Assembly: GCF_025837155.1 (NCBI RefSeq)
Contig: NZ_CP107549.1
Coordinates: forward strand, 2,914,001 to 2,978,000
Length of the DNA stretch: 64,000 nt
From: Pseudomonas sp. Z8(2022)
GTDB lineage: Bacteria; Pseudomonadota; Gammaproteobacteria; Pseudomonadales; Pseudomonadaceae
Direction: 5' to 3'
In this document: positions 29,313-39,384 of the stretch, piece after piece
How the letters are laid out: every line of letters starts with the position of its first letter
Numbering within the stretch: the first letter of the stretch is position 1
Made by a program: the position numbers and the translations under genes
Notes under the pieces: generated by a model
What the model was told of the DNA's origin: nothing
Databases searched by the model: none
What the model saw: only the letters and a program-made list of their open reading frames with translations

Positions 29313-30245
29313 TCAGCGAGGTTCGTCCAGCTCAAGGCGCTGACGGATCACATCCACCAGTTTGTCCGGCTGAAATTTGGAGAGGAAGTTGTCGCAGCCG
29401 ACCTTCTTCACCATGGCCTCGTTGAAGCTGCCGGACAGCGAGGTATGCAGCACCACGTAGAGGTCCTTGAGACGCGGGTCGTGGCGGATTTCACTGGTGA
29501 GGCGATAACCATCCATCTCCGGCATCTCGGCATCGGTGAAGACCATCAGCAGCTTGTCGGTCATCACCTCGCCGGTATCGGCCCATTTCTTCAGCAGATT
29601 GAGCGCCTTCAGACCGTCACTGGCCATGTGCATACGGATGCCCAGCTGCGACAGGGTATCGCGCAACTGGCTGAGCGCGACGCTGGAGTCGTCCACCAGC
29701 AGCACTTCACGACCGCGCGCCTTTTCCAGCAGAGGGTCGGCGAGTTTTTCCGCGGACACTCTGGTACTCATCGGTACGATCTCGGCCAGCACTTTTTCCA
29801 CGTCGATGACCTCGACGATCTGCTCATCAACCTTGGTGATCGCAGTCAGGTAATGCTGGCGGCCGGCACCGCCGGGCGGTGGCTGGATCGACTCCCAGTT
29901 GAGGTTGAGGATGCGATCCACGCTGCCAACCAGAAAGGCCTGCACAGAGCGGTTGTACTCGGTAACGATGATGGTGCTGCGCTCATCCGGCACCAGCGGG
30001 CGCATGCCGATGGCCTGTGACAGGTCGATCACCGGCAGGGTCTGGCCACGCAGGTTGACCACGCCACAGACGAAGCGATGACGTTGCGGCATCAGCGTCA
30101 GCTTGGGCATCTGCAGGACTTCCTGCACCTTGAACACGTTGATGGCGAACAACTGCCGGCCGGCCAGGCGGAACATGAGAATTTCCAGACGGTTCTCGCC
30201 GACCAGTTGCGTGCGTTGATCCACTGAATCGAGAATGCCGGCCAT
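29313..30245 (-). CDS. cheV: Chemotaxis protein CheV
   Basis: A 310-residue coupling protein with an N-terminal CheW domain (residues ~20-160; LFAINVFKVQEVLQMP and VVNLRGQTLPVIDLS) and a C-terminal receiver domain (~175-300) with the acidic pocket LLVDDSSVAL, phospho-acceptor Asp in MVFTDAEMPEMDG and Lys in NFLSKFQPD. It links chemoreceptors to CheA, with phosphorylation tuning the response. Two ATGs stand in tandem; the second (30245) gives MAGILDSVDQRTQLVGENRLE. Confidence 0.94.
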   Translation of the reverse strand: MAGILDSVDQRTQLVGENRLEILMFRLAGRQLFAINVFKVQEVLQMPKLTLMPQRHRFVCGVVNLRGQTLPVIDLSQAIGMRPLVPDERSTIIVTEYNRSVQAFLVGSVDRILNLNWESIQPPPGGAGRQHYLTAITKVDEQIVEVIDVEKVLAEIVPMSTRVSAEKLADPLLEKARGREVLLVDDSSVALSQLRDTLSQLGIRMHMASDGLKALNLLKKWADTGEVMTDKLLMVFTDAEMPEMDGYRLTSEIRHDPRLKDLYVVLHTSLSGSFNEAMVKKVGCDNFLSKFQPDKLVDVIRQRLELDEPR

Positions 30246-30338
30246 CATGGGCTCCAGGGTATATGGGGGTGAGTCTAGTCTGCCTTATGGGTTATCGGCC
30301 GACTGCCGGCAGACTGAAGCACTGCTGGCGTACAGCCA

Positions 30339-31256
30339 TCATGCCTCAGCCCCAGGCGCCTGACCAGTGAGCAACGGCGAATGGTCGGGCAGATGCAGAC
30401 GCAAGGCGCCGGGTTGTGCGCTGAAGCGCAGACGCTTGCTTTCCATGGGCTCACCGTCGAGGTTCAAATCCAGTCCCTCCAGTGCCTCGACCTCCAGCCA
30501 GGGCAGCCGTGCACTGATGGCCACACTCTGCAGGCCGCGCATGCCGCCCGTAAGCAGCGTGCCGAGGGTACTCACCACATCCTGCGCCGCCGGCACGATG
30601 CAGACATCCAGCAAGCCATCATCGATGGTCGCATCCGGACAGAGCAGATGCCCGCCGCCGGCCTGACGGCCATTACCAATACCCAGGGCTAGAAATTCGC
30701 CCTGCCACTCAAAGTCTGGCCCGTGAAAACGCCCCGCAGCGGCACGCACTTCAGAGAAGCGACTGAGCCCGGTCAACAGATAGGCGGCGCCACCCAGGAC
30801 TTTCTTGAGATCTTCCGAGGTATTGGCCGTGACATTGGAACCGAAGCCGCCGGTGGCCATATTGAGGAAGGCGCGCTCACCCGCCATGCCCACGTCCACC
30901 GCTACCGGCTCCACATCGAGCAGCGTCAGCGCCGCAGCCGGCGTCAGTGGCACACCGGCTGCGTTGGCGAAGTCGTTGGCCGTACCCAGTGGCAACAAGG
31001 CCAGGCTGGCCGCCCCCCGCACCTTGATCAACGCCTCGACCACATCGCGCAGGGTACCGTCACCGCCACCGGCGATCAGGGTCGGATAACCCGCCGCCAG
31101 CCCTTCACGCACCAGACGTTCGGCATCGCCGCCTTCCCAAGTCAGGCGAACCGCCAGATCCCAGCCACGCTCACGCAGGCCGTTCACGGCCGCCCTCACT
31201 TCCTCATTCAACGCCTGCTTGCCATGCAGGATCAGCCATGCCTTGCGTTCGCGCAT
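30339..31256 (-). CDS. yegS: Lipid kinase, YegS/diacylglycerol kinase family
   Basis: A 305-residue kinase of the DAGK/YegS fold. The nucleotide-binding motif GGGDGT (LIAGGGDGTLRDVVEAL) near residue 65 and the GTANDFA segment near 95 are complete. YegS phosphorylates phosphatidylglycerol in vitro; the true substrate here is unknown. The ATG at 31256 (MRERKAWLILHGKQALN) is chosen; upstream in-frame codons to 31469 overlap the divergent pirin gene and are not family-like. A GGAGAC ribosome site lies upstream on the minus strand. Confidence 0.9.
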   Translation of the reverse strand: MRERKAWLILHGKQALNEEVRAAVNGLRERGWDLAVRLTWEGGDAERLVREGLAAGYPTLIAGGGDGTLRDVVEALIKVRGAASLALLPLGTANDFANAAGVPLTPAAALTLLDVEPVAVDVGMAGERAFLNMATGGFGSNVTANTSEDLKKVLGGAAYLLTGLSRFSEVRAAAGRFHGPDFEWQGEFLALGIGNGRQAGGGHLLCPDATIDDGLLDVCIVPAAQDVVSTLGTLLTGGMRGLQSVAISARLPWLEVEALEGLDLNLDGEPMESKRLRFSAQPGALRLHLPDHSPLLTGQAPGAEA

Positions 31257-31390
31257 TGTCGTCTCCTTGAAAATCAACGAATGCCTAATGCGAGGCTTTC
31301 GCTCAATAAATCGAATAAACAGATAATTAAACCGCACAAAATGCGCTTTTAAATCGATCCACCCAAATAGATCATGCGCCCATCGCATCT

Positions 31391-31410
31391 GCACGGGGCT
31401 GAACCCGTGC
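31391..31410. promoter_or_regulatory. Hairpin just before the pirin ribosome site
   Basis: Perfect 7-bp stem GCACGGG / CCCGTGC with a 6-base loop, ending 6 bases before the AGGAGG of the pirin gene. It could be a remnant terminator or affect translation; there is no T run. The 31290-31380 stretch upstream is strikingly AT-rich for this genome and likely holds the yegS/pirin promoters. Confidence 0.4.
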
Positions 31411-31428
31411 ACGACAGGAGGATTGACC

Positions 31429-32127
31429 ATGATCGATGTACGTCCGTTCGAACAACTCGGTGGCGCCAACCACGGCTGGCTGAATGCCCGCCATCACTTT
31501 TCCTTCGCCGAATACTACGACGCCGAGCGAATGAACTGGGGGCGCCTGCGCGTCTGGAATGACGACGAGATCGCCCCGCACTCGGGCTTTCCGCCGCATC
31601 CGCATCGCGACATGGAGATCATCACCTACGTACGCGAAGGGGCCATCAGCCATGAGGACAACCTGGGCAACAAGGGCCGTACCGAGGCCGGCGACGTGCA
31701 GGTGATGAGCGCCGGTACCGGTATCGCTCACAGCGAGTACAACCTGGAGGACGAAACCACCAAGATCTTCCAGATCTGGATTCAGCCGAACCAGGCCGGC
31801 CTGCCGCCTTCCTGGGGAGCCAAACCGTTTCCCAAAGGCGACCGTTCGGGTTCCTTCGTCACCCTGGCCAGCGGCTTCGAAGAAGATATTGACGCCCTGC
31901 GCATCCGCACCGATGCCAGGCTGGTGGCTGCCACCATCAACGCGGGAGAGAGCGCCGAATACCGCCTACAGCCGGGTCGCAAGGCCTATCTGGTCGGCGC
32001 GACCGGGGTATTCAGCGTCAACGGTGTGGCCGCCAAAGCACGTGACGGCGTGGCCGTTGCGGATGTCGAGGTGATCCGCGTCGAAGCACAGGAAGACAGC
32101 GAGATCGTACTGGTGGATGTCGCCTGA
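31429..32127 (+). CDS. Pirin family protein (bicupin)
   Basis: A 232-residue pirin: N-terminal cupin with metal ligands in FPPHPHRDMEIITYV (His57/59/61-like) and the glutamate/histidine of HSEYN near residue 100, then a second, shorter cupin. Some bacterial pirins have quercetin dioxygenase activity, others regulate metabolic enzymes; no specific partner is visible. AGGAGG is 8 bases before the ATG at 31429. Confidence 0.9.
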   Translation: MIDVRPFEQLGGANHGWLNARHHFSFAEYYDAERMNWGRLRVWNDDEIAPHSGFPPHPHRDMEIITYVREGAISHEDNLGNKGRTEAGDVQVMSAGTGIAHSEYNLEDETTKIFQIWIQPNQAGLPPSWGAKPFPKGDRSGSFVTLASGFEEDIDALRIRTDARLVAATINAGESAEYRLQPGRKAYLVGATGVFSVNGVAAKARDGVAVADVEVIRVEAQEDSEIVLVDVA

Positions 32128-32138
32128 GGCCAAAGACG

Positions 32139-32166
32139 TCGCCCTCCGTCTGGAGGGCGATTTTTT
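32139..32166 (+). terminator. Rho-independent terminator after pirin
   Basis: Perfect stem TCGCCCTCC / GGAGGGCGA with loop GTCT and six T; 11 bases after the pirin stop and 11 before the convergent kinase stop. Confidence 0.93.
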
Positions 32167-32177
32167 GTCGGAGCGTT

Positions 32178-33737
32178 TTACGCCGGATAACCGGTGATCT
32201 TGCGAATGCGCTGGTACAGCGGCTTGAGCTGGCGATACATGCGCTGGTAGACCTGTCCGTAGAGTTGCTCGTAAGTACGCTGTGCAGCCGGGTTGGGCAG
32301 GAACACCTGGCCGACCCGGGTCATGGCGGCGATGGCGCTCGGGTAATCGGCATGCAACCCCAGGCCCACCGCGCAGTTGATCGCCGCGCCCAGGCCGCTG
32401 GTTTCGTACAGATGCGGTCGCTCGGCGGGCAGGCCGAAGATGTCGGCCGTCAGTTGCATCGCCGCATCGCTCTGCGCGCCCCCGCCAGATACACGCAGGC
32501 GCTTGATACGTGTGCCGGAGCGTTTTTCGATACGTTCCCTGCCCTGACACAGGGCGTAGGCCAGGCCTTCGAGAATGGCGCGGTAGAGATGCGCGCGGGT
32601 GTGCACATCACCAAAACCGATGATCGAGCCCTTGGCCTCCAGTCCCGGTTCGCGGATGCCCGGCGTCCAGTATGGCTGCAACATCAGCCCCATTGAGCCG
32701 GGCGGCACGGCGTTGACCAGTTCGTCGAACAGCGCCTCGGGCGACACACCCAGCGCCTCGGCACGCTGCATCTCACGCAGGCCGAACTCGCGCTTGAACC
32801 AGCTGACCATCCAGAAGCCGCGGTAGATCATCACCTCGGTATTGAAGTGATCCGGCAGGGCCGCCGGATAGGGTGGAATCAGGCGAACGGTTTCCAGATA
32901 ACGACTGCGTGTGGTGTTGATGGTCGCGGTGGTGCCGTACGAAAGGCAGGCAGTGCCGGGCTCCATAGCACCGGAACCCAGCACCTCGCAGGCCTTGTCG
33001 GCACCGGCGGCAATCAGCGGCAGGCCCTCGGGAATGCCGGTATGACGGCTGGCCTCGGCGCTGATCTGGCCCAGTCTCTCTCCCGGCCTGAACAGCTCCG
33101 GCAGTTGCTCGGGGCGTACGGAAAGTGCCTGCCACTTCCAGTCGCCGGGCGCAGCCCAGCGCAGGCGCTTGTAGTCGAACGGCAGGTAGGCCACGCAACT
33201 GCTGGTCGAATCGACGAAGCGACCACACAGACGATGGGTGAGAAACCCCGAAAGCAACAGCACCTTGTGCGTGCGCGCAGCGATGTCCGGCTGATGCTGG
33301 GCAACCCAGTTGACCTCGGCCTGACCACGGAAGTGATTCACTGCCTCCTCGGCCCGCGCCAGCTTGAACAGCCAGCCCCACAGGCCCTTGATGCGCCCCT
33401 TTACCTCGGCACGACGCTGATCGAGCCAGAGAATCGCCGGACGCAACGGCGCGCCCTGCTCGTCGACATGGATGATGCTGCCGCGCTGGGTTGTCACGGC
33501 GACGCCCTTGATCTGACTGCGATCGATGTCCACCTGCTGCCACAGCAACCGGCAGGCCTCGCCGAGGCTGGCCCAGTAGTACTCCGGGTCCTGCTCGGCC
33601 CACCCCGGCTCGCTGGAGAAATAGGGGTCGAGTTCGACCTTGCCCTTGGCGAGCAGATTGCCCTTGGTATCGAACAGCAGCGCACGCACGCTCTGGGTGC
33701 CGTTGTCGATGCTCAGCAGGTAGCTTGGTTCGCTCAA
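32178..33737 (-). CDS. FGGY-family carbohydrate kinase
   Basis: A 519-residue sugar kinase of the FGGY (hexokinase/actin-like) fold. N-terminal LLSIDNGTQSVRALLFD, central PAILWLDQRRAE, and C-terminal adenosine motif VSGGGAQSDAAMQLTADIFG are clear. The substrate is not evident; glycerol and xylulose kinases belong to this family. Its partners are a GlpD-like dehydrogenase and an AGPS-like oxidase on the same strand, so a glycerol- or polyol-type substrate is a reasonable guess. It is third in the putative operon 37001-32178. Confidence 0.9.
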   Translation of the reverse strand: MSEPSYLLSIDNGTQSVRALLFDTKGNLLAKGKVELDPYFSSEPGWAEQDPEYYWASLGEACRLLWQQVDIDRSQIKGVAVTTQRGSIIHVDEQGAPLRPAILWLDQRRAEVKGRIKGLWGWLFKLARAEEAVNHFRGQAEVNWVAQHQPDIAARTHKVLLLSGFLTHRLCGRFVDSTSSCVAYLPFDYKRLRWAAPGDWKWQALSVRPEQLPELFRPGERLGQISAEASRHTGIPEGLPLIAAGADKACEVLGSGAMEPGTACLSYGTTATINTTRSRYLETVRLIPPYPAALPDHFNTEVMIYRGFWMVSWFKREFGLREMQRAEALGVSPEALFDELVNAVPPGSMGLMLQPYWTPGIREPGLEAKGSIIGFGDVHTRAHLYRAILEGLAYALCQGRERIEKRSGTRIKRLRVSGGGAQSDAAMQLTADIFGLPAERPHLYETSGLGAAINCAVGLGLHADYPSAIAAMTRVGQVFLPNPAAQRTYEQLYGQVYQRMYRQLKPLYQRIRKITGYPA

Positions 33738-33774
33738 GGTACGGTCCTTCTTACTTGAAATGGAGCATCCTCCA

Positions 33775-33794
33775 CTCTCCCGCTTGCGGGAGAG
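33775..33794. repeat. Intra-operon palindrome
   Basis: CTCTCCCG-CTTG-CGGGAGAG, a perfect 8-bp stem, in the 85-base space between the GlpD-like gene and the kinase gene. This motif type is widespread as a small interspersed repeat in pseudomonads and could stabilise or attenuate the transcript. Confidence 0.6.
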
Positions 33795-33822
33795 GGAGCC
33801 GATCGGAGCTGCCGCAAGCTAG

Positions 33823-35403
33823 TCATCCCCCCTGCGGCAGGCTGTAACAGCGCTGCCACAGCGCCAGGTAATCACCCTCTTCCTGCTGCCAGCGCGCATC
33901 ACTCCAGCCCAGGCGCGGCTGGCACAGTGCGCGGATACGTGGCAGTTCTGCACGACCGCCTTCAGCCAGCAGCAGGCCGAGGCGCGTGCGGCGTAGCAGC
34001 AGATCGTCCAGGTGCAGCACCAGTTCGCCTTCGGCAGCCCAGGCCAGTTCGGTCCACAGGGTATCGGTGCCGGCGACGCAGTCGCCGCCAATCTCCGTAA
34101 TCAGGCGCAGCACCTCCTTCAGTTGCCGGCCATGGCGGCCAAGCAGGCGGCGTTGCTGCGCCTGGCTCAGGTGCGGCATGGCCGGCGGCGTACCGTCACG
34201 AAATACGGCGCAACCACGATCATCCACCGCTTTGCCGACGAATCCCGCACAGGCCCGCAGCACCTCCAGCGCCAGCAAGCGGAAGGTGGTCAGCTTGCCG
34301 CCAGCCAGGGTCACGCTACCCGGTTCGATCCACAGCGCATGCTCGCGCTTTTCATCCGAGGGTTTCAGTGCGCTGTCGTCATCGCTCACCACCGGCCTTA
34401 CGCCCGCCCAGGTCGACAGCACATCGCCACGCCCCACCTGAGCAGCGGGGAACTGCTGGGAACAGGCGGCCAGCAGGTAATCGACTTCTTCGTTGCCGAT
34501 CGCTGCCTCGGCATCCAGGTCAGCGGTGTGATCCAGATCGGTGGTGCCGATCACCGTTGCCCCCTCCCAGGGGAAAACGAATACCGGCCGGCCATCGCTT
34601 GCATGCATGAAGCTGAAGGCATGTGCTACCGGCAGGCGCCAGCCTGGCAGCAGCAGATGACTGCCACGCAGCGGACGGACACGACCATTGCCTGACTGGC
34701 GCAGACGGTCGGCCCAGGCACCGGTGGCCTGCGCCACGGCGCGGCTGCGCAGGCGATACTGCCTGCCCGTTTCCACATCCTCGGCGAGCACACCGACCAC
34801 CCTGCCCGCCTCGCGCAGCAGCTCGACCACGCGCATGCCATTGAGCGCCTCGCCGCCTTCGGCGCGCGCCTCGCCGAGCACGCGCTGCACCAGACGCGCA
34901 TCGTCGGTCACCGCATCGAAGAAACGCGTTCCCCCCAGCAGGCCATCTTCACGTATGCCCGGTGCCAGGTAACGCAGCTGCTGCAGCGGGTAGAACAGAT
35001 GATTGCGCTTGCCGGCCAGAGCGTCATACAGACTGAGCAGGCCGCCGAACACCTTCGGCCCGGGAAAACCGCCGCGATAATGCGGCATGACGAAGCTCAA
35101 CGGCTCCACCAGCCCCGGCGCCTCGCCGAGCAGACGCTGGCGCTCGCGCACCGAGTCGCGAGTCAGCCGTAGCTGGCCCTTGGCGACGTAGCGCAAGCCG
35201 CCGTGCACCATCTTCGAGGAGCGGCTGGAGGTGCCCCAGGCGAAGTCGCGCTGTTCCAGCAGCAGGCAGCGCCAGCCACGCCGCGCCGCCTCACGGAGGA
35301 TACCGGCGCCGCAGATGCCGCCGCCGATTACCAGCAGATCCCAGTCGCGAGCAGCCAGCTCAGGCAGCGCGCGCGTGCGCCAGGCGGCGTTCCAGGGCTC
35401 CAT
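33823..35403 (-). CDS. FAD-dependent glycerol-3-phosphate dehydrogenase family protein
   Basis: A 526-residue flavoprotein of the GlpD/GlpA type that would oxidise glycerol-3-phosphate to DHAP and pass electrons to quinone. The FAD motif VIGGGICGAGILREAARRG is at residues 25-45, SRSSKMVHGGLRY near 60, and GGKLTTFR near 370, followed by the C-terminal DAO_C helical domain. It starts 2 bases after the AGPS-like gene stops. It is unlikely to be the main GlpD, whose gene normally sits with glpF/glpK (family knowledge); the cluster suggests a special route. Confidence 0.92.
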   Translation of the reverse strand: MEPWNAAWRTRALPELAARDWDLLVIGGGICGAGILREAARRGWRCLLLEQRDFAWGTSSRSSKMVHGGLRYVAKGQLRLTRDSVRERQRLLGEAPGLVEPLSFVMPHYRGGFPGPKVFGGLLSLYDALAGKRNHLFYPLQQLRYLAPGIREDGLLGGTRFFDAVTDDARLVQRVLGEARAEGGEALNGMRVVELLREAGRVVGVLAEDVETGRQYRLRSRAVAQATGAWADRLRQSGNGRVRPLRGSHLLLPGWRLPVAHAFSFMHASDGRPVFVFPWEGATVIGTTDLDHTADLDAEAAIGNEEVDYLLAACSQQFPAAQVGRGDVLSTWAGVRPVVSDDDSALKPSDEKREHALWIEPGSVTLAGGKLTTFRLLALEVLRACAGFVGKAVDDRGCAVFRDGTPPAMPHLSQAQQRRLLGRHGRQLKEVLRLITEIGGDCVAGTDTLWTELAWAAEGELVLHLDDLLLRRTRLGLLLAEGGRAELPRIRALCQPRLGWSDARWQQEEGDYLALWQRCYSLPQGG

Positions 35404-35405
35404 GC

Positions 35406-37001
35406 TCAGTCCTGCAGCAACACGCCGGGAGCCAGGCGCTGATCAGGGTCGAAATGCATGGCAAGACTGCGCAGCGTGGCCATGCCCAGCTCCCCCTTCT
35501 CCGCCGCCAGATACGGAGCGTGGTCGCGACCGACACCATGCTGGTGGCTGATGGTGCCGCGGTTTTCTGCGATGGCGCGGCTGGCCGCGGCCTTGAGCCG
35601 CCGCCAGCGCAGCATGGCCTCGGTGTAGTCGTTACCGGGACGGAACACGTAGGTGGTGTAGATGCTCGACCCTTCACCATAAACGTGCGACAGGTGAGTG
35701 AATACGTGCACTCGCTCGTCATCGCCGGCCAGCTCTTCACGCAGGCTGGCCTCGACCCTGTTCAACAGGTTGTCGACATTCGACCAGTCGGTGGCGGTTT
35801 CCAGGGTGTCCACCAGGTAGCCGCGCTCCCACAGGCCATGGCGCAGATAAGGGAAACGGAAACGGTTCTGCTCCCACTTCTTGCCCAGCAGAGTGCCGGT
35901 GAACACGCCGCCAAAGCCTTTCAGCAGGCGCCGCGCCTGTTTCAGCGAGGCGGTGTTCTGCGTCCGGCTGCCAGTGACGCCGAAAGTCAGCATGCACTTG
36001 CTGTCACGGGCGCCGCGCAGGGCCAGGTATTTCTCCAGCAGGGCGATCTGTTGCGGGTGACCAGCCAGGGCCAGCTGGGTACGGGTTTCGATGGCGTTGG
36101 ACAGGCGCAGCATGGACAGCGGCACACGCGCCTGGGCCAGGCTGCGAATGGCGCTCAGCGCCTGCTGCCAGTCGGGCAGGAACACCGCATAGAAACGCTC
36201 CTGCTCAGCCAGGCGACTGATGCGTACGCGTACTTCGGAGATCACCCCGAAGCGCCCTTCCGAGCCCATTACCAGCTCGCGCAGGTCGGGTCCGGCGGCC
36301 GAAGCCGGGAATGTGGGTATGTTCAGAGTTCCTGCGAAGGTTTCCAGCTTGCCGCCGGCAAACAGCTGCTCGATGCGTCCATAGCGCAACGACTGCTGAC
36401 CACTGGAACGACTGGCGACCCAGCCGCCAAGGGTCGACAACTCCCAGGACTGCGGAAAATGTCCCAGGGTATAGCCGCGCGCGCGCAGCTGGCTTTCCAC
36501 TTGCGGGCCGTTGGCGCCGGGGCCGAAGGTGGCGATCAGGCTGTCCTCGTCGACTTCCAGCAGGCGCGTCATGCGCTCCAGCGACAGGGTCAGCACCGGG
36601 CGCTGACCGGCCTGCGGGTTGATATGGCCGGCCACCGAGGTGCCGCCGCCGTAGGGAATCAGGGTCACGTCATGCTGCTGCGCCCAGGCCAGCAGATCAC
36701 GAATCTGCTCGGCGCTTTCAGGGCAGGCGACACCATCGGGAAACTGGCCAAAATCGCCCGAGCGCATGGCCAGCCAGTCCGGCAGGCTCTGACCACGGGC
36801 GTGACGCACACGCACTTCGGCATCAACGCTGATCAGCGGATGCGGCGACAGGCGCGAGGCCGGCACACGCGCCAGCACAGCCTCCAGGCTGGCATCGGCC
36901 AGACGCTGACCAGGCCCTACCAGGTCGGCGAGAAACGCCTCACCATGGGCCGGCAGTTCCACTTCGGTCGCCTCGTCACCCCATCCGTTCCAGCGTCGCA
37001 T
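35406..37001 (-). CDS. FAD-binding oxidase, alkyldihydroxyacetonephosphate synthase-like
   Basis: A 531-residue VAO/PCMH-type flavoprotein. The FAD pyrophosphate loop is PYGGGTSVAGH near residue 125; FAD-linked C-terminal domain shows GTLLGKKWEQNRFRFPYLR, VFTHLSHVYGEG and the His-rich SHQHGVGRDHAPYL near the end, all typical of AGPS, the enzyme that makes ether-lipid precursors from acyl-DHAP. Start MRRWNGWGDEATEVELP (37001) has GGGGGA upstream. First gene of a three-gene minus-strand group divergent from an AraC regulator. True substrate unknown in bacteria of this group. Confidence 0.9.
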   Translation of the reverse strand: MRRWNGWGDEATEVELPAHGEAFLADLVGPGQRLADASLEAVLARVPASRLSPHPLISVDAEVRVRHARGQSLPDWLAMRSGDFGQFPDGVACPESAEQIRDLLAWAQQHDVTLIPYGGGTSVAGHINPQAGQRPVLTLSLERMTRLLEVDEDSLIATFGPGANGPQVESQLRARGYTLGHFPQSWELSTLGGWVASRSSGQQSLRYGRIEQLFAGGKLETFAGTLNIPTFPASAAGPDLRELVMGSEGRFGVISEVRVRISRLAEQERFYAVFLPDWQQALSAIRSLAQARVPLSMLRLSNAIETRTQLALAGHPQQIALLEKYLALRGARDSKCMLTFGVTGSRTQNTASLKQARRLLKGFGGVFTGTLLGKKWEQNRFRFPYLRHGLWERGYLVDTLETATDWSNVDNLLNRVEASLREELAGDDERVHVFTHLSHVYGEGSSIYTTYVFRPGNDYTEAMLRWRRLKAAASRAIAENRGTISHQHGVGRDHAPYLAAEKGELGMATLRSLAMHFDPDQRLAPGVLLQD

Positions 37002-37123
37002 CGCATCCCCCATTCCGATCAGCACTTATGGCTGCCTATACTAGCCAGCCGCCGATTTCCGTCACTGTCGAATCGGGACAGGCACTATCGCCAATCAAGA
37101 CAGGCATCCCAGAACAAGAATCC

Positions 37124-38158
37124 ATGGATAACCTCGGCTATACCTCCGTTCCCGCCCTGCTCAAGTATCTGCGCCAGGCCGAACAGCTCGGCCTGGACAC
37201 CGACCGCGCCCTGGCCGCCGCGGGCATCGACGCTCAGGACCTGGCCGACAATGGCAAGCGCATGCCCAGCGAGGTGCATGAGCGCCTGCTGGCGCATCTG
37301 ATCGAGGTTTCCGGTGATCCCTTATTCGGCCTGCACTCAGCGCGTTTCGTGCAGCCCGGCTCGTGGAGCGTGCTCGGTTACATCGCAATGAACTGCGCCA
37401 CCCTGGGTGAGGCCATGGGCCGCATCGTGCCGTACGAGAAACTGGTGGGCGACATGGGCACCAGCCGTCTCGAAGCCGCCGAGGATCACGTGCGGCTGAT
37501 CTGGAGTTGCCGTCATCAGGCGCCGGACGTACGCCGCCATATGGTCGAGAACGTGCTCGCCTCCTGGCTGCTGTACGCCCGCTGGATCGCCGACTCCGAG
37601 CATTCGCCGCGCGAAGTGTGGTTCGAGCATGCGCAACCGGCCGACACCGACCTGGCCGAATACCAGCAGCTGTTCGGCTGCCCGGTGCTGTTCGAACAGC
37701 CCTGCAACGCCCTGCTGGTGCCGCTGGATTACCTCGGCGTGCCGCTGCGCCAGGCCGATGCCAACCTGCTGCGCACGCTGGAAGAACATGCCCTGACCCT
37801 GATGGCCGGGCTGGACGATAACGAGCCACTGCCGCGCCGGGTGAAGAACTCCCTGCGCCTGCTGCTCAAGGACGGCCTGCCACGCAAGGAACGAGTGGCG
37901 GAGAAGTTCGACATGACCGTGCGCACCCTGCAGCGCCACCTGCAGCAGGCCGGCACCAGCTATCAGCAGATACTCGACGAACTGCGCCAGGAGCTGGCCG
38001 AGCATTACCTGCTGCGCAGCGACCTGGCGATCCAGGACATCGCCTGTTACCTGGGTTTCACCGAATCACGCTCATTCCACCGCAGCTTCAAAAGCTGGAC
38101 CGGGCAAACGCCGGGCGAGTTTCGCGAAAGCAGGCGCCGGGACAATCCGCTGGGTTAG
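37124..38158 (+). CDS. AraC-family transcriptional regulator
   Basis: A 344-residue regulator with an N-terminal Arabinose_bd (OruR/ArgR-like) domain (VSGDPLFGLHSARFVQPGSWSVLGYIAMN) and a C-terminal double HTH (ERVAEKFDMTVRTLQRHLQQAGTSYQQ and IQDIACYLGFTESRSFHRSFKSWTG). The divergent AGPS-like operon is the most likely target, as in the same arrangement in P. aeruginosa (PA3027, from memory). The ATG at 37124 starts MDNLGYTSVPALLKYL; an upstream start at 37028 adds a poor sequence. Confidence 0.92.
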   Translation: MDNLGYTSVPALLKYLRQAEQLGLDTDRALAAAGIDAQDLADNGKRMPSEVHERLLAHLIEVSGDPLFGLHSARFVQPGSWSVLGYIAMNCATLGEAMGRIVPYEKLVGDMGTSRLEAAEDHVRLIWSCRHQAPDVRRHMVENVLASWLLYARWIADSEHSPREVWFEHAQPADTDLAEYQQLFGCPVLFEQPCNALLVPLDYLGVPLRQADANLLRTLEEHALTLMAGLDDNEPLPRRVKNSLRLLLKDGLPRKERVAEKFDMTVRTLQRHLQQAGTSYQQILDELRQELAEHYLLRSDLAIQDIACYLGFTESRSFHRSFKSWTGQTPGEFRESRRRDNPLG

Positions 38159-38256
38159 CGTTCCGGCGAGCGGCGCACTCTGTTACCGGTACGCCTTGGG
38201 AGAAGGGGCGGAAACGTCGGCGGCCTGCGCCTCCGGGCAGGCCGCCGATAACGTTC

Positions 38257-39384
38257 TCAACGCTTGCGCAGAATCACACTGCCGATCGAATAACCGGCAC
38301 CGAAGGAACTCAGGACACCCAGGCTGCCCGCCGGCAGGTCGTCCTGATACTTGTGCAGGGCGATCACCGAGCCGGCCGAGCTGGTGTTGGCGTATGTGTC
38401 GAGAATCACCGGCGCCTCGTGCGGCTCGGCATCGCGCCCCAGCAGCTTGCGGGTGATCAGCAGGTTCATGTTGAGGTTGGCCTGGTGCAGCCAGAAGCGC
38501 CGAACCTGAGAAGGCTCCAGCTGGTTTTCCGCCAGATGGGCAGCGATCAGCTCGGCAACCATCGGGCAGACTTCCTTGAACACCTTGCGCCCTTCCTGCA
38601 CGAACAGCTTGTCGCGGGTGCCGATACCTTCCTCGGCCGCCCGGTTGAGGAAACCGAAGTTGTTGCGGATGTTATTGGAGAACTGCGTCAGCAGCTTGGT
38701 ACTGACCACATCGAACTGATGGGCAGAGGTGGCCTGATCGGCGCGTTCGAGAATCACCGCGGTGGCGGCGTCACCGAAGATGAAGTGGCTGTCGCGGTCA
38801 CGGAAGTTGAGGTGGCCGGTGCAGATTTCCGGGTTGACCATGAGAATCGCACGGGCCTGGCCGGTCTGAATCGCAGTAGCTGCAGCCTGAATGCCGAATG
38901 TGGCCGAGGAACAGGCCACGTTCATGTCGTAACCCCAGCCCTGAATGCCGAGCGCCGCCTGCACTTCGATGGCCACCGCCGGGTAGGCACGCTGCAGATT
39001 CGAGCAGGCGACGATCACCCCGTCGATATCGGCGACGGTCTTGCCGGCACGCTCCAGCGCCTCTTTGGCAGCGCCGACGGCCATCTCGCAGAGGATGCCC
39101 CACTCGTCGTTGGAGCGCTCGGGAATGCGCGGCACCATGCGCTGCGGATCGAGGATCCCGTCCTTGTCGATGACGAAGCGGCTCTTGATGCCGGAAGCCT
39201 TCTCGATGAAGGCGCTGCTGGACTCGTTCAGCGCCTCGACCTCGCCACGGGCGATGGCGTCGGCATTGTCGGCATTGAACTGCTGCACGTAGGCATTGAA
39301 GGATGCCACCAGCTCGTCGTTGGAAATGCTGTTGGCCGGGGTATAGAGGCCGGTACCACTGATCACGACGTTATGCACGCTCAT
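38257..39384 (-). CDS. Beta-ketoacyl-ACP synthase III-like condensing enzyme
   Basis: A 375-residue FabH-type thiolase-fold enzyme. Catalytic triad residues are Cys158 ([10 protein letters not shown]), His in FWLHQANLN and Asn in [11 protein letters not shown]. It closely resembles P. aeruginosa PA3286, which joins octanoyl-CoA from beta-oxidation with malonyl-ACP, feeding it into synthesis (established for that protein, from memory). The ~50-residue insertion near residues 30-75 ([18 protein letters not shown]) sets this subgroup apart from housekeeping FabH. Start [16 protein letters not shown] at 39384. Confidence 0.9.

Follow-up and report, generated by a model that had tools for sequence, protein, structure and literature searches.

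What would a Pseudomonas cell do with a relative of the ether-lipid enzyme AGPS that is encoded beside a kinase and a glycerol-3-phosphate-type dehydrogenase? The question arises from a stretch of 64,000 nucleotides of Pseudomonas sp. Z8(2022) (contig NZ_CP107549.1, positions 2,914,001 to 2,978,000; called the window here), in which three minus-strand genes and one divergent plus-strand gene occupy positions 32178-38158. An earlier note on this DNA had read them as an FGGY kinase, a GlpD homolog and an AGPS homolog in one operon with a divergent AraC regulator. Family profiles, matches in the Protein Data Bank (PDB) and 78 of 80 relatives uphold that description, and the note's idea of an ether-lipid-type route, whether synthetic or catabolic, agrees with our tests. 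The cluster is an already published system, the GliR regulon of P. aeruginosa, and its function is unproven. We propose that the operon, activated by GliR, serves the use of glycerol lipids with one ether-linked (or ester-linked) chain. We give this reading a probability of about 0.4, and its main support is the residue pattern of the predicted proteins. Families and domains were assigned with Pfam and NCBIfam profiles, with which eight window proteins were scanned; the relatives are the best 80 of 479 from one scan. The four genes are:

35406-37001, minus strand: AGPS-like flavoprotein (PA3026 type), 531 amino acids, FAD_binding_4 and FAD-oxidase_C (Pfam), first gene of the operon
33823-35403, minus strand: GlpD-like glycerol-3-phosphate-type dehydrogenase (PA3025 type), 526 amino acids, DAO and DAO_C
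32178-33737, minus strand: FGGY kinase (PA3024 type), 519 amino acids, TTG start, FGGY_N and FGGY_C
37124-38158, plus strand: GliR, AraC-family activator (PA3027 type), 344 amino acids, Arabinose_bd and HTH_18

The AGPS-like protein resembles its namesake in sequence, fold and catalytic residues. In the PDB, AGPS gives the highest-scoring sequence matches (230.2 and 195.1 bits), and the next kind, D-lactate dehydrogenase, scores 66.5 bits. The structure model has a mean predicted local distance difference test score (pLDDT) of 75.9, and its first 37 PDB structural matches are all AGPS chains, with 24-27% identity in the structure alignments. All but one of the 37 AGPS chains listed have a template modelling (TM) score, normalized to query length, of 0.78-0.85, and the remaining chain scores 0.69; the 13 dehydrogenase chains listed after them reach 0.63-0.68. 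As modeled, the fold is closer to AGPS than to D-lactate dehydrogenase. Residues R352, R447 and Y508 (Dictyostelium numbering) are reported to be important for catalysis in AGPS (PMC3509576). They are invariant in the AGPS-like members compared, whether close (80), distant (8) or remote (3); three paralogs of the own genome (L002-L004) fell short of the E-value threshold and are not in this table. The WNGWG motif of two AGPS sequences is also present. An ordinary FAD-linked lactate or glycolate dehydrogenase was considered for this protein and ruled out by score, fold and residues.

One AGPS feature failed the comparison. The motif HHH, seen in two AGPS sequences, is a mark of that family, and the window protein and all 88 clade members carry HQH. 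The middle residue (H616 in the guinea pig enzyme, within 615-617) is Gln in 80/80 close and 8/8 distant members and His in the three remote ones. The protein thus shares with eukaryotic alkyl-DHAP synthase (AGPS/ADPS) the fold, the FAD domains, R352/R447/Y508, WNGWG and two of three active-site histidines, whereas it has Gln for H616 and is encoded with kinase and dehydrogenase genes. The three remote relatives with intact HHH (L121, L122 at G174:C1:2774989-2776545, and L123) form a second AGPS-like family, 31-33% identical, and no kinase or GlpD-like gene was recognized beside them in the fetched stretch. They are possibly true ether-lipid synthases.

The kinase differs from GlpK in its predicted glycerol pocket. 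We take R84, E85, W104, Y136, D246, Q247 and F271 to be the glycerol contacts of GlpK (letters checked on the E. coli protein), and we make a like assumption about the end of the glycerol molecule that each of them contacts. Four of these seven are changed in the kinase family. The catalytic D246 is kept, as are R84 and W104, in all 78 close and 8 distant members. E85 is Gly in 78/78 close members and Ser, Ala, Gly or Tyr in the distant ones, never Glu; the position assigned to Y136 holds Phe in 77/78 and Phe, Leu or Ala in the distant eight, never Tyr; Q247 is Lys and F271 is Thr in 78/78 and 8/8. The kinase and GlpK therefore have the FGGY family in common and differ in the pocket, and the kinase does not reach the curated GlpK cut-off (152.5 bits against 590). 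Its structure model was too poor for use (mean pLDDT 50.4). Remoter kinase relatives in L152 (45%) and L153 (40%) stand beside a dehydrogenase gene and make up a different unit; the L152 neighbor is a 6-phosphogluconate/3-hydroxyisobutyrate-type dehydrogenase, and the unscanned L153 neighbor looks alike.

Glycerol is, moreover, served by other genes. Separate GlpK and GlpD proteins above the curated cut-offs are encoded elsewhere in the own genome (4.47 Mb in two contigs, the extent of all own-genome searches). GlpK above its cut-off lies away from the cluster in 11/11 cluster genomes checked, three from the family and eight from outside. GlpD exceeds its cut-off in seven of these, one of them (G318) with a stop inside the match; of the remaining four, two have another GlpD-type match below the cut-off, and two (G193, G074) have the cluster copy only. 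According to Kotecka et al., non-Pseudomonas strains with the cluster have no glpK or glpD homologs (PMC8151288). Their remark on glpK is not borne out in the 11 genomes, which are possibly other strains than those of the paper. Because four glycerol contacts are lost and a separate GlpK is present in all 11 genomes, glycerol is an unlikely kinase substrate, and the predicted pocket would fit a substituted glycerol. The earlier note had placed phosphorylation of a glycerol-type substrate first; glycerol itself is improbable in that role.

The dehydrogenase, by comparison, has a GlpD-type active site. Among 11 E. coli GlpD positions compared, R54, Y55, H233, T270, R317, R332, K354 and G11 are kept in 78/78 close and 8/8 distant members, and I9, N14 and V350 vary. 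The first seven are what we take to be the polar active-site positions. Like the kinase, the protein falls below the curated cut-off of its namesake (276.4 bits against 360, NF008899).

From these residues a route can be proposed with alkylglycerol (or monoacylglycerol) as our best guess for the substrate. Lipases and phospholipases would release 1-O-alkylglycerol, and the FGGY kinase would add a phosphate to the free end of that molecule, giving 1-alkyl-glycerol-3-phosphate. Oxidation of carbon 2 by the GlpD-like enzyme would then yield alkyl-dihydroxyacetone phosphate (alkyl-DHAP). The AGPS-like flavoenzyme, working toward cleavage, would form a flavin-DHAP adduct and replace the fatty alcohol with either a fatty acid or water, with acyl-DHAP or DHAP plus fatty alcohol as end products. 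What the substrate is, which way the AGPS step runs and what the operon does for the cell are all inferred. Alkylglycerol monooxygenase (AGMO) is described as the only enzyme known to cleave the alkylglycerol ether (PMC7911779, PMC9192799). The common outcome would be cleavage of that bond, which AGMO achieves with oxygen and tetrahydrobiopterin (PMC7911779), whereas the route proposed here would use phosphorylation, oxidation at C2 and flavin exchange. That bacteria degrade ether lipids in this way, by reversed AGPS chemistry as an alternative to AGMO without a monooxygenase and with GliR co-inducing the lipid-releasing enzymes, is possible but doubtful; a catabolic role overall we advance only tentatively.

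What is known of the regulator comes from P. aeruginosa. The window regulator passes the NCBIfam GliR equivalog NF050186 (669.9 bits, cut-off 570). Kotecka et al. named PA3027 GliR in 2021, reported that it activates PA3026-PA3024 and found it bound to the PA3026 promoter (PMC8151288). Overproduction of GliR raised PA3024 173-fold, PA3025 163-fold and PA3026 135-fold (PMC8151288), a joint rise that speaks, for P. aeruginosa, against the lack of coregulation which the earlier note had named as a refutation; in the window the conserved operator makes such a lack unlikely. The lipid kinase gene PA3023 rose 47-fold and the phospholipase gene PA3464 130-fold (PMC8151288). The genes, their order and the divergent regulator are the same in the window as in P. 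aeruginosa (PA3027, PA3026-PA3024, PA3023), whereas the window comes from another species group and its operator is longer than the published motifs. The earlier note knew of no assigned pathway. This stands insofar as none is proven, although a role had already been proposed (PMC8151288). We found no paper that assigns a substrate or phenotype to the cluster under the topics of GliR and its genes, bacterial AGPS and bacterial alkylglycerol breakdown, with subscription journals thinly covered. Published remarks on two of the genes give no hint of direction in the parts available: the abundance of PA3026 is lower on octadecane than it is on hexadecane, at ratios of 0.5 and 0.57, and PA3025 is in a cis-2-decenoic acid gene list.

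We compared 79 intergenic regions between the GliR and AGPS-like genes (78 relatives and the window), of which 73, with lengths of 100-160 base pairs (bp), were aligned. Three conserved blocks emerged: TGTCttGATTGGCGA, seven bases and TGTCccGATtCGACA, followed by the -10-like GGCTAGTATAGGC. In the window the corresponding elements are:

37066-37102, minus strand: predicted GliR operator, a direct repeat of TGTCTTGATTGGCGA, 7 bases and TGTCCCGATTCGACA
37034-37046, minus strand: -10-like, strongly conserved promoter block GGCTAGTATAGGC, downstream of the operator, with ATACTA at 37038

The predicted operator lies 64 bp upstream of the AGPS-like start codon. All 79 regions hold a stretch identical to it at 22 or more of 37 positions; the same stretches also built the scoring matrix. 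In the own genome the pattern occurs once at up to three mismatches, and a reversed control gave zero matches. Control of the operon by GliR within Pseudomonas, through this predicted operator, is well supported. Outside the family, a site is the best of its locus in L115, L117 and L118 and the second-best in L113, 67-91 bp upstream of the codons for RWNGWG in the AGPS gene (70 bp in the window). The sites there score only -1 to -10, whereas those in Pseudomonas score about 60 and the best in five shuffled loci -8 to -18; with such weak scores, the operator beyond the family rests on its position. No operator-like site was found at a comparable distance in L114, L116, L119, L120 and L079, which counts against GliR control beyond Pseudomonas. 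No GliR-like protein was found in the genome of L118 (G122) at an expectation value (E) of 1e-40, and that of L113 (G070) has one of 30% identity only. Two genomes (G193, G003) have a GliR-like gene, and no operator site was found before their AGPS gene. GliR control beyond Pseudomonas is thus only suggested. The published motifs A and B were rejected as evidence, being too unspecific: the window has 95 matches to A at up to two mismatches (31 expected) and 20 to B at up to one (6.7 expected). Motif A occurs in the window promoter only with two mismatches (37049-37063), and B does not occur there at one mismatch. A sigma-70 promoter scan of window positions 30000-38700 gave no match.

The arrangement of the genes is itself conserved. 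The full trio is present in 78/80 relatives, the other two (L008, L021) being cut by contig ends, and GliR adjoins the AGPS gene in 78/80, with L060 (contig end) and L079 as exceptions. Since trio and regulator each recur in 78 relatives, the arrangement is not due to chance. Of 398 genomes sampled evenly across the phylum, 16 (the own included) have a member of the AGPS clade at 54% identity or more (E up to 1e-60), and two have only a 33% relative; the kinase is present in 16/16 AGPS-clade genomes. The order AGPS, GlpD-like, kinase is kept in 8/8 relatives outside the family (L113-L120), and a GliR-like protein (39%) adjoins the trio in one, L115. Their flanking genes are mostly unrelated (20 proteins scanned); the exceptions include a GMC oxidoreductase and an alpha/beta hydrolase close to the L113 trio. 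G190 (L154, 8920-11847) has GliR (77%), pirin and YegS next to one another and lacks the trio; this natural empty locus looks as though all three genes of the trio had been lost together. In a Rhodanobacter thiooxydans LCS2 record (L079, 8001-12771), a Pseudomonas-like trio, 78-80% identical and without GliR, sits on a 22.8 kb contig; it is either a horizontal transfer or a stray contig.

A second line of evidence concerns lipids. Four GliR-like genes unlinked to the trio were examined (47-50% identity; the three scanned all fall below the GliR cut-off). For one, in G193 (L158), the next gene encodes a patatin-type phospholipase, and another, in G003 (L155), is divergent from a gene for an alpha/beta-hydrolase-fold protein. 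The Rhodoferax cluster, according to Kotecka et al., also includes a gene for a lipolytic enzyme (PMC8151288). Regulon and neighbor links lean toward lipid use rather than lipid making. The residue and structure comparisons, the GlpK genes elsewhere, the direct-repeat operator and the unlinked GliR-like genes beside hydrolase-type genes are new here.

Two rivals would run the pathway toward ether lipids. Kotecka et al. proposed a route from glycerol to alkylglycerone phosphate, with PlsB-type candidates for the acylation (PMC8151288): glycerol would pass through glycerol-3-phosphate to DHAP, be acylated elsewhere and reach the AGPS-like enzyme, which would make alkyl-DHAP. The retained catalytic residues and fold of AGPS suit it; the lost glycerol contacts of the kinase and the separate GlpK of all 11 genomes do not. 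A DHAP acyltransferase, a fatty-alcohol-forming enzyme and an alkyl-DHAP reductase, which would provide acylation, fatty alcohol and ketone reduction, were absent among the eight window proteins scanned; the whole genome was not searched. To our knowledge, ether lipids are unreported in Pseudomonas, although no dedicated search was made, and we counted this against biosynthesis as well, which we consider unlikely. Synthesis could instead start from monoacylglycerol, which the kinase would turn into lysophosphatidate and the GlpD-like enzyme into acyl-DHAP, before the AGPS-like enzyme swaps the acyl group for a fatty alcohol. Such a scheme spares the DHAP acyltransferase, explains the opened kinase pocket and keeps the AGPS step in its known direction. 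It still requires the same fatty alcohol supply and later ketone reductase, and the regulon links found point to lipid breakdown, so that we regard it as fairly unlikely.

The remaining rivals are catabolic. If the operon served to break down glycerol or some other small polyol and the AGPS-like protein worked as an ordinary flavin dehydrogenase, the complete set of polar GlpD positions, a kinase of the FGGY sugar/polyol class and the reported lack of glpK and glpD homologs in non-Pseudomonas strains would be accounted for. The pocket unlike that of GlpK and the preserved AGPS residues speak against it, as do the GlpK and GlpD proteins above cut-off in 11 and 7 of 11 genomes (which may differ from those of the paper) and the normal growth of an operon deletion on glycerol (PMC8151288); we hold it to be quite improbable. 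The changed pocket would equally admit any larger substituent, for example an aryl or glycosyl group that the AGPS-like enzyme would cleave, and the scanned neighbors in relatives are mostly uninformative on this point. Since the regulon links are to lipids and described AGPS enzymes have long-chain substrates (PMC3509576), this seems very improbable.

Use of ether- or ester-linked glycerol lipids also has evidence against it. AGPS is known as a synthase, and a useful reverse reaction in this operon is our own supposition. The alignment near GlpK Y136 is weak, which makes the residue call there uncertain. Three of 19 genomes with the kinase (40-58%; E up to 1e-70) have no member of the AGPS clade. 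Because the neighbor in L155 is over the Pfam cut-off for Peptidase_S9 only, we call it a putative hydrolase and not a lipase, and no lipase-type neighbor was found beside the unlinked GliR-like genes in G138 and G174. No PF04185 phospholipase was found in the own genome (the family of PA3464 was not checked), so the link to a PA3464-type phospholipase is not carried over to it. The genome does have three FA_hydroxylase (PF04116) genes, by which another ether-cleaving route is possible. In P. aeruginosa the operon deletion had no phenotype on rich medium, with citrate or glycerol, or in nine BIOLOG plates, and in E. coli GliR activated its promoter without added ligand (PMC8151288). The growth tests in the available text of that paper name no ether lipid (the word ‘ether’ is absent from it; the contents of the BIOLOG plates were not checked).

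Some details of the locus remain to be given. The listed open reading frame of the AGPS-like gene starts at GTG 37025, and the conserved start is ATG 37001, with the N-terminus MRRWNGWGDE; that of GliR starts at 37028, against 37124 in the gene model. The AGPS-like and GlpD-like genes are 2 bp apart and the GlpD-like and kinase genes 85 bp. The latter gap (33738-33822) measures about 340-450 bp in the close relatives L009, L014, L016 and L017, as if by insertion. The AGPS-like protein is 94-96% identical to its counterparts in Pseudomonas of the mendocina/chengduensis group. Two genes follow the kinase:

31429-32127, plus strand: pirin-family gene, between FGGY kinase and YegS on the opposite strand
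30339-31256, minus strand: YegS lipid kinase gene (PA3023 type), beyond the pirin gene

The pirin gene has the same position as in P. mendocina, where it precedes the PA3023 ortholog (PMC8151288). It is present in 38/80 relatives and is probably outside the pathway. The counterpart of YegS responds to GliR in P. aeruginosa; a transcript shared with the trio is only putative here. Adjoining gliR, the minus-strand gene at 38257-39384 strongly matches NCBIfam PRK07515 (beta-ketoacyl-ACP synthase III, 675 bits), and a gene of this type is near the cluster in 6/80 relatives within the fetched flanks.

If the proposed use of glycerol lipids is correct, the operon would provide bacteria with a second route for cleaving glyceryl ether bonds. 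This would bear on how ether lipids are turned over in soils, sediments and hosts, and it would add a natural catabolic cousin to AGPS.

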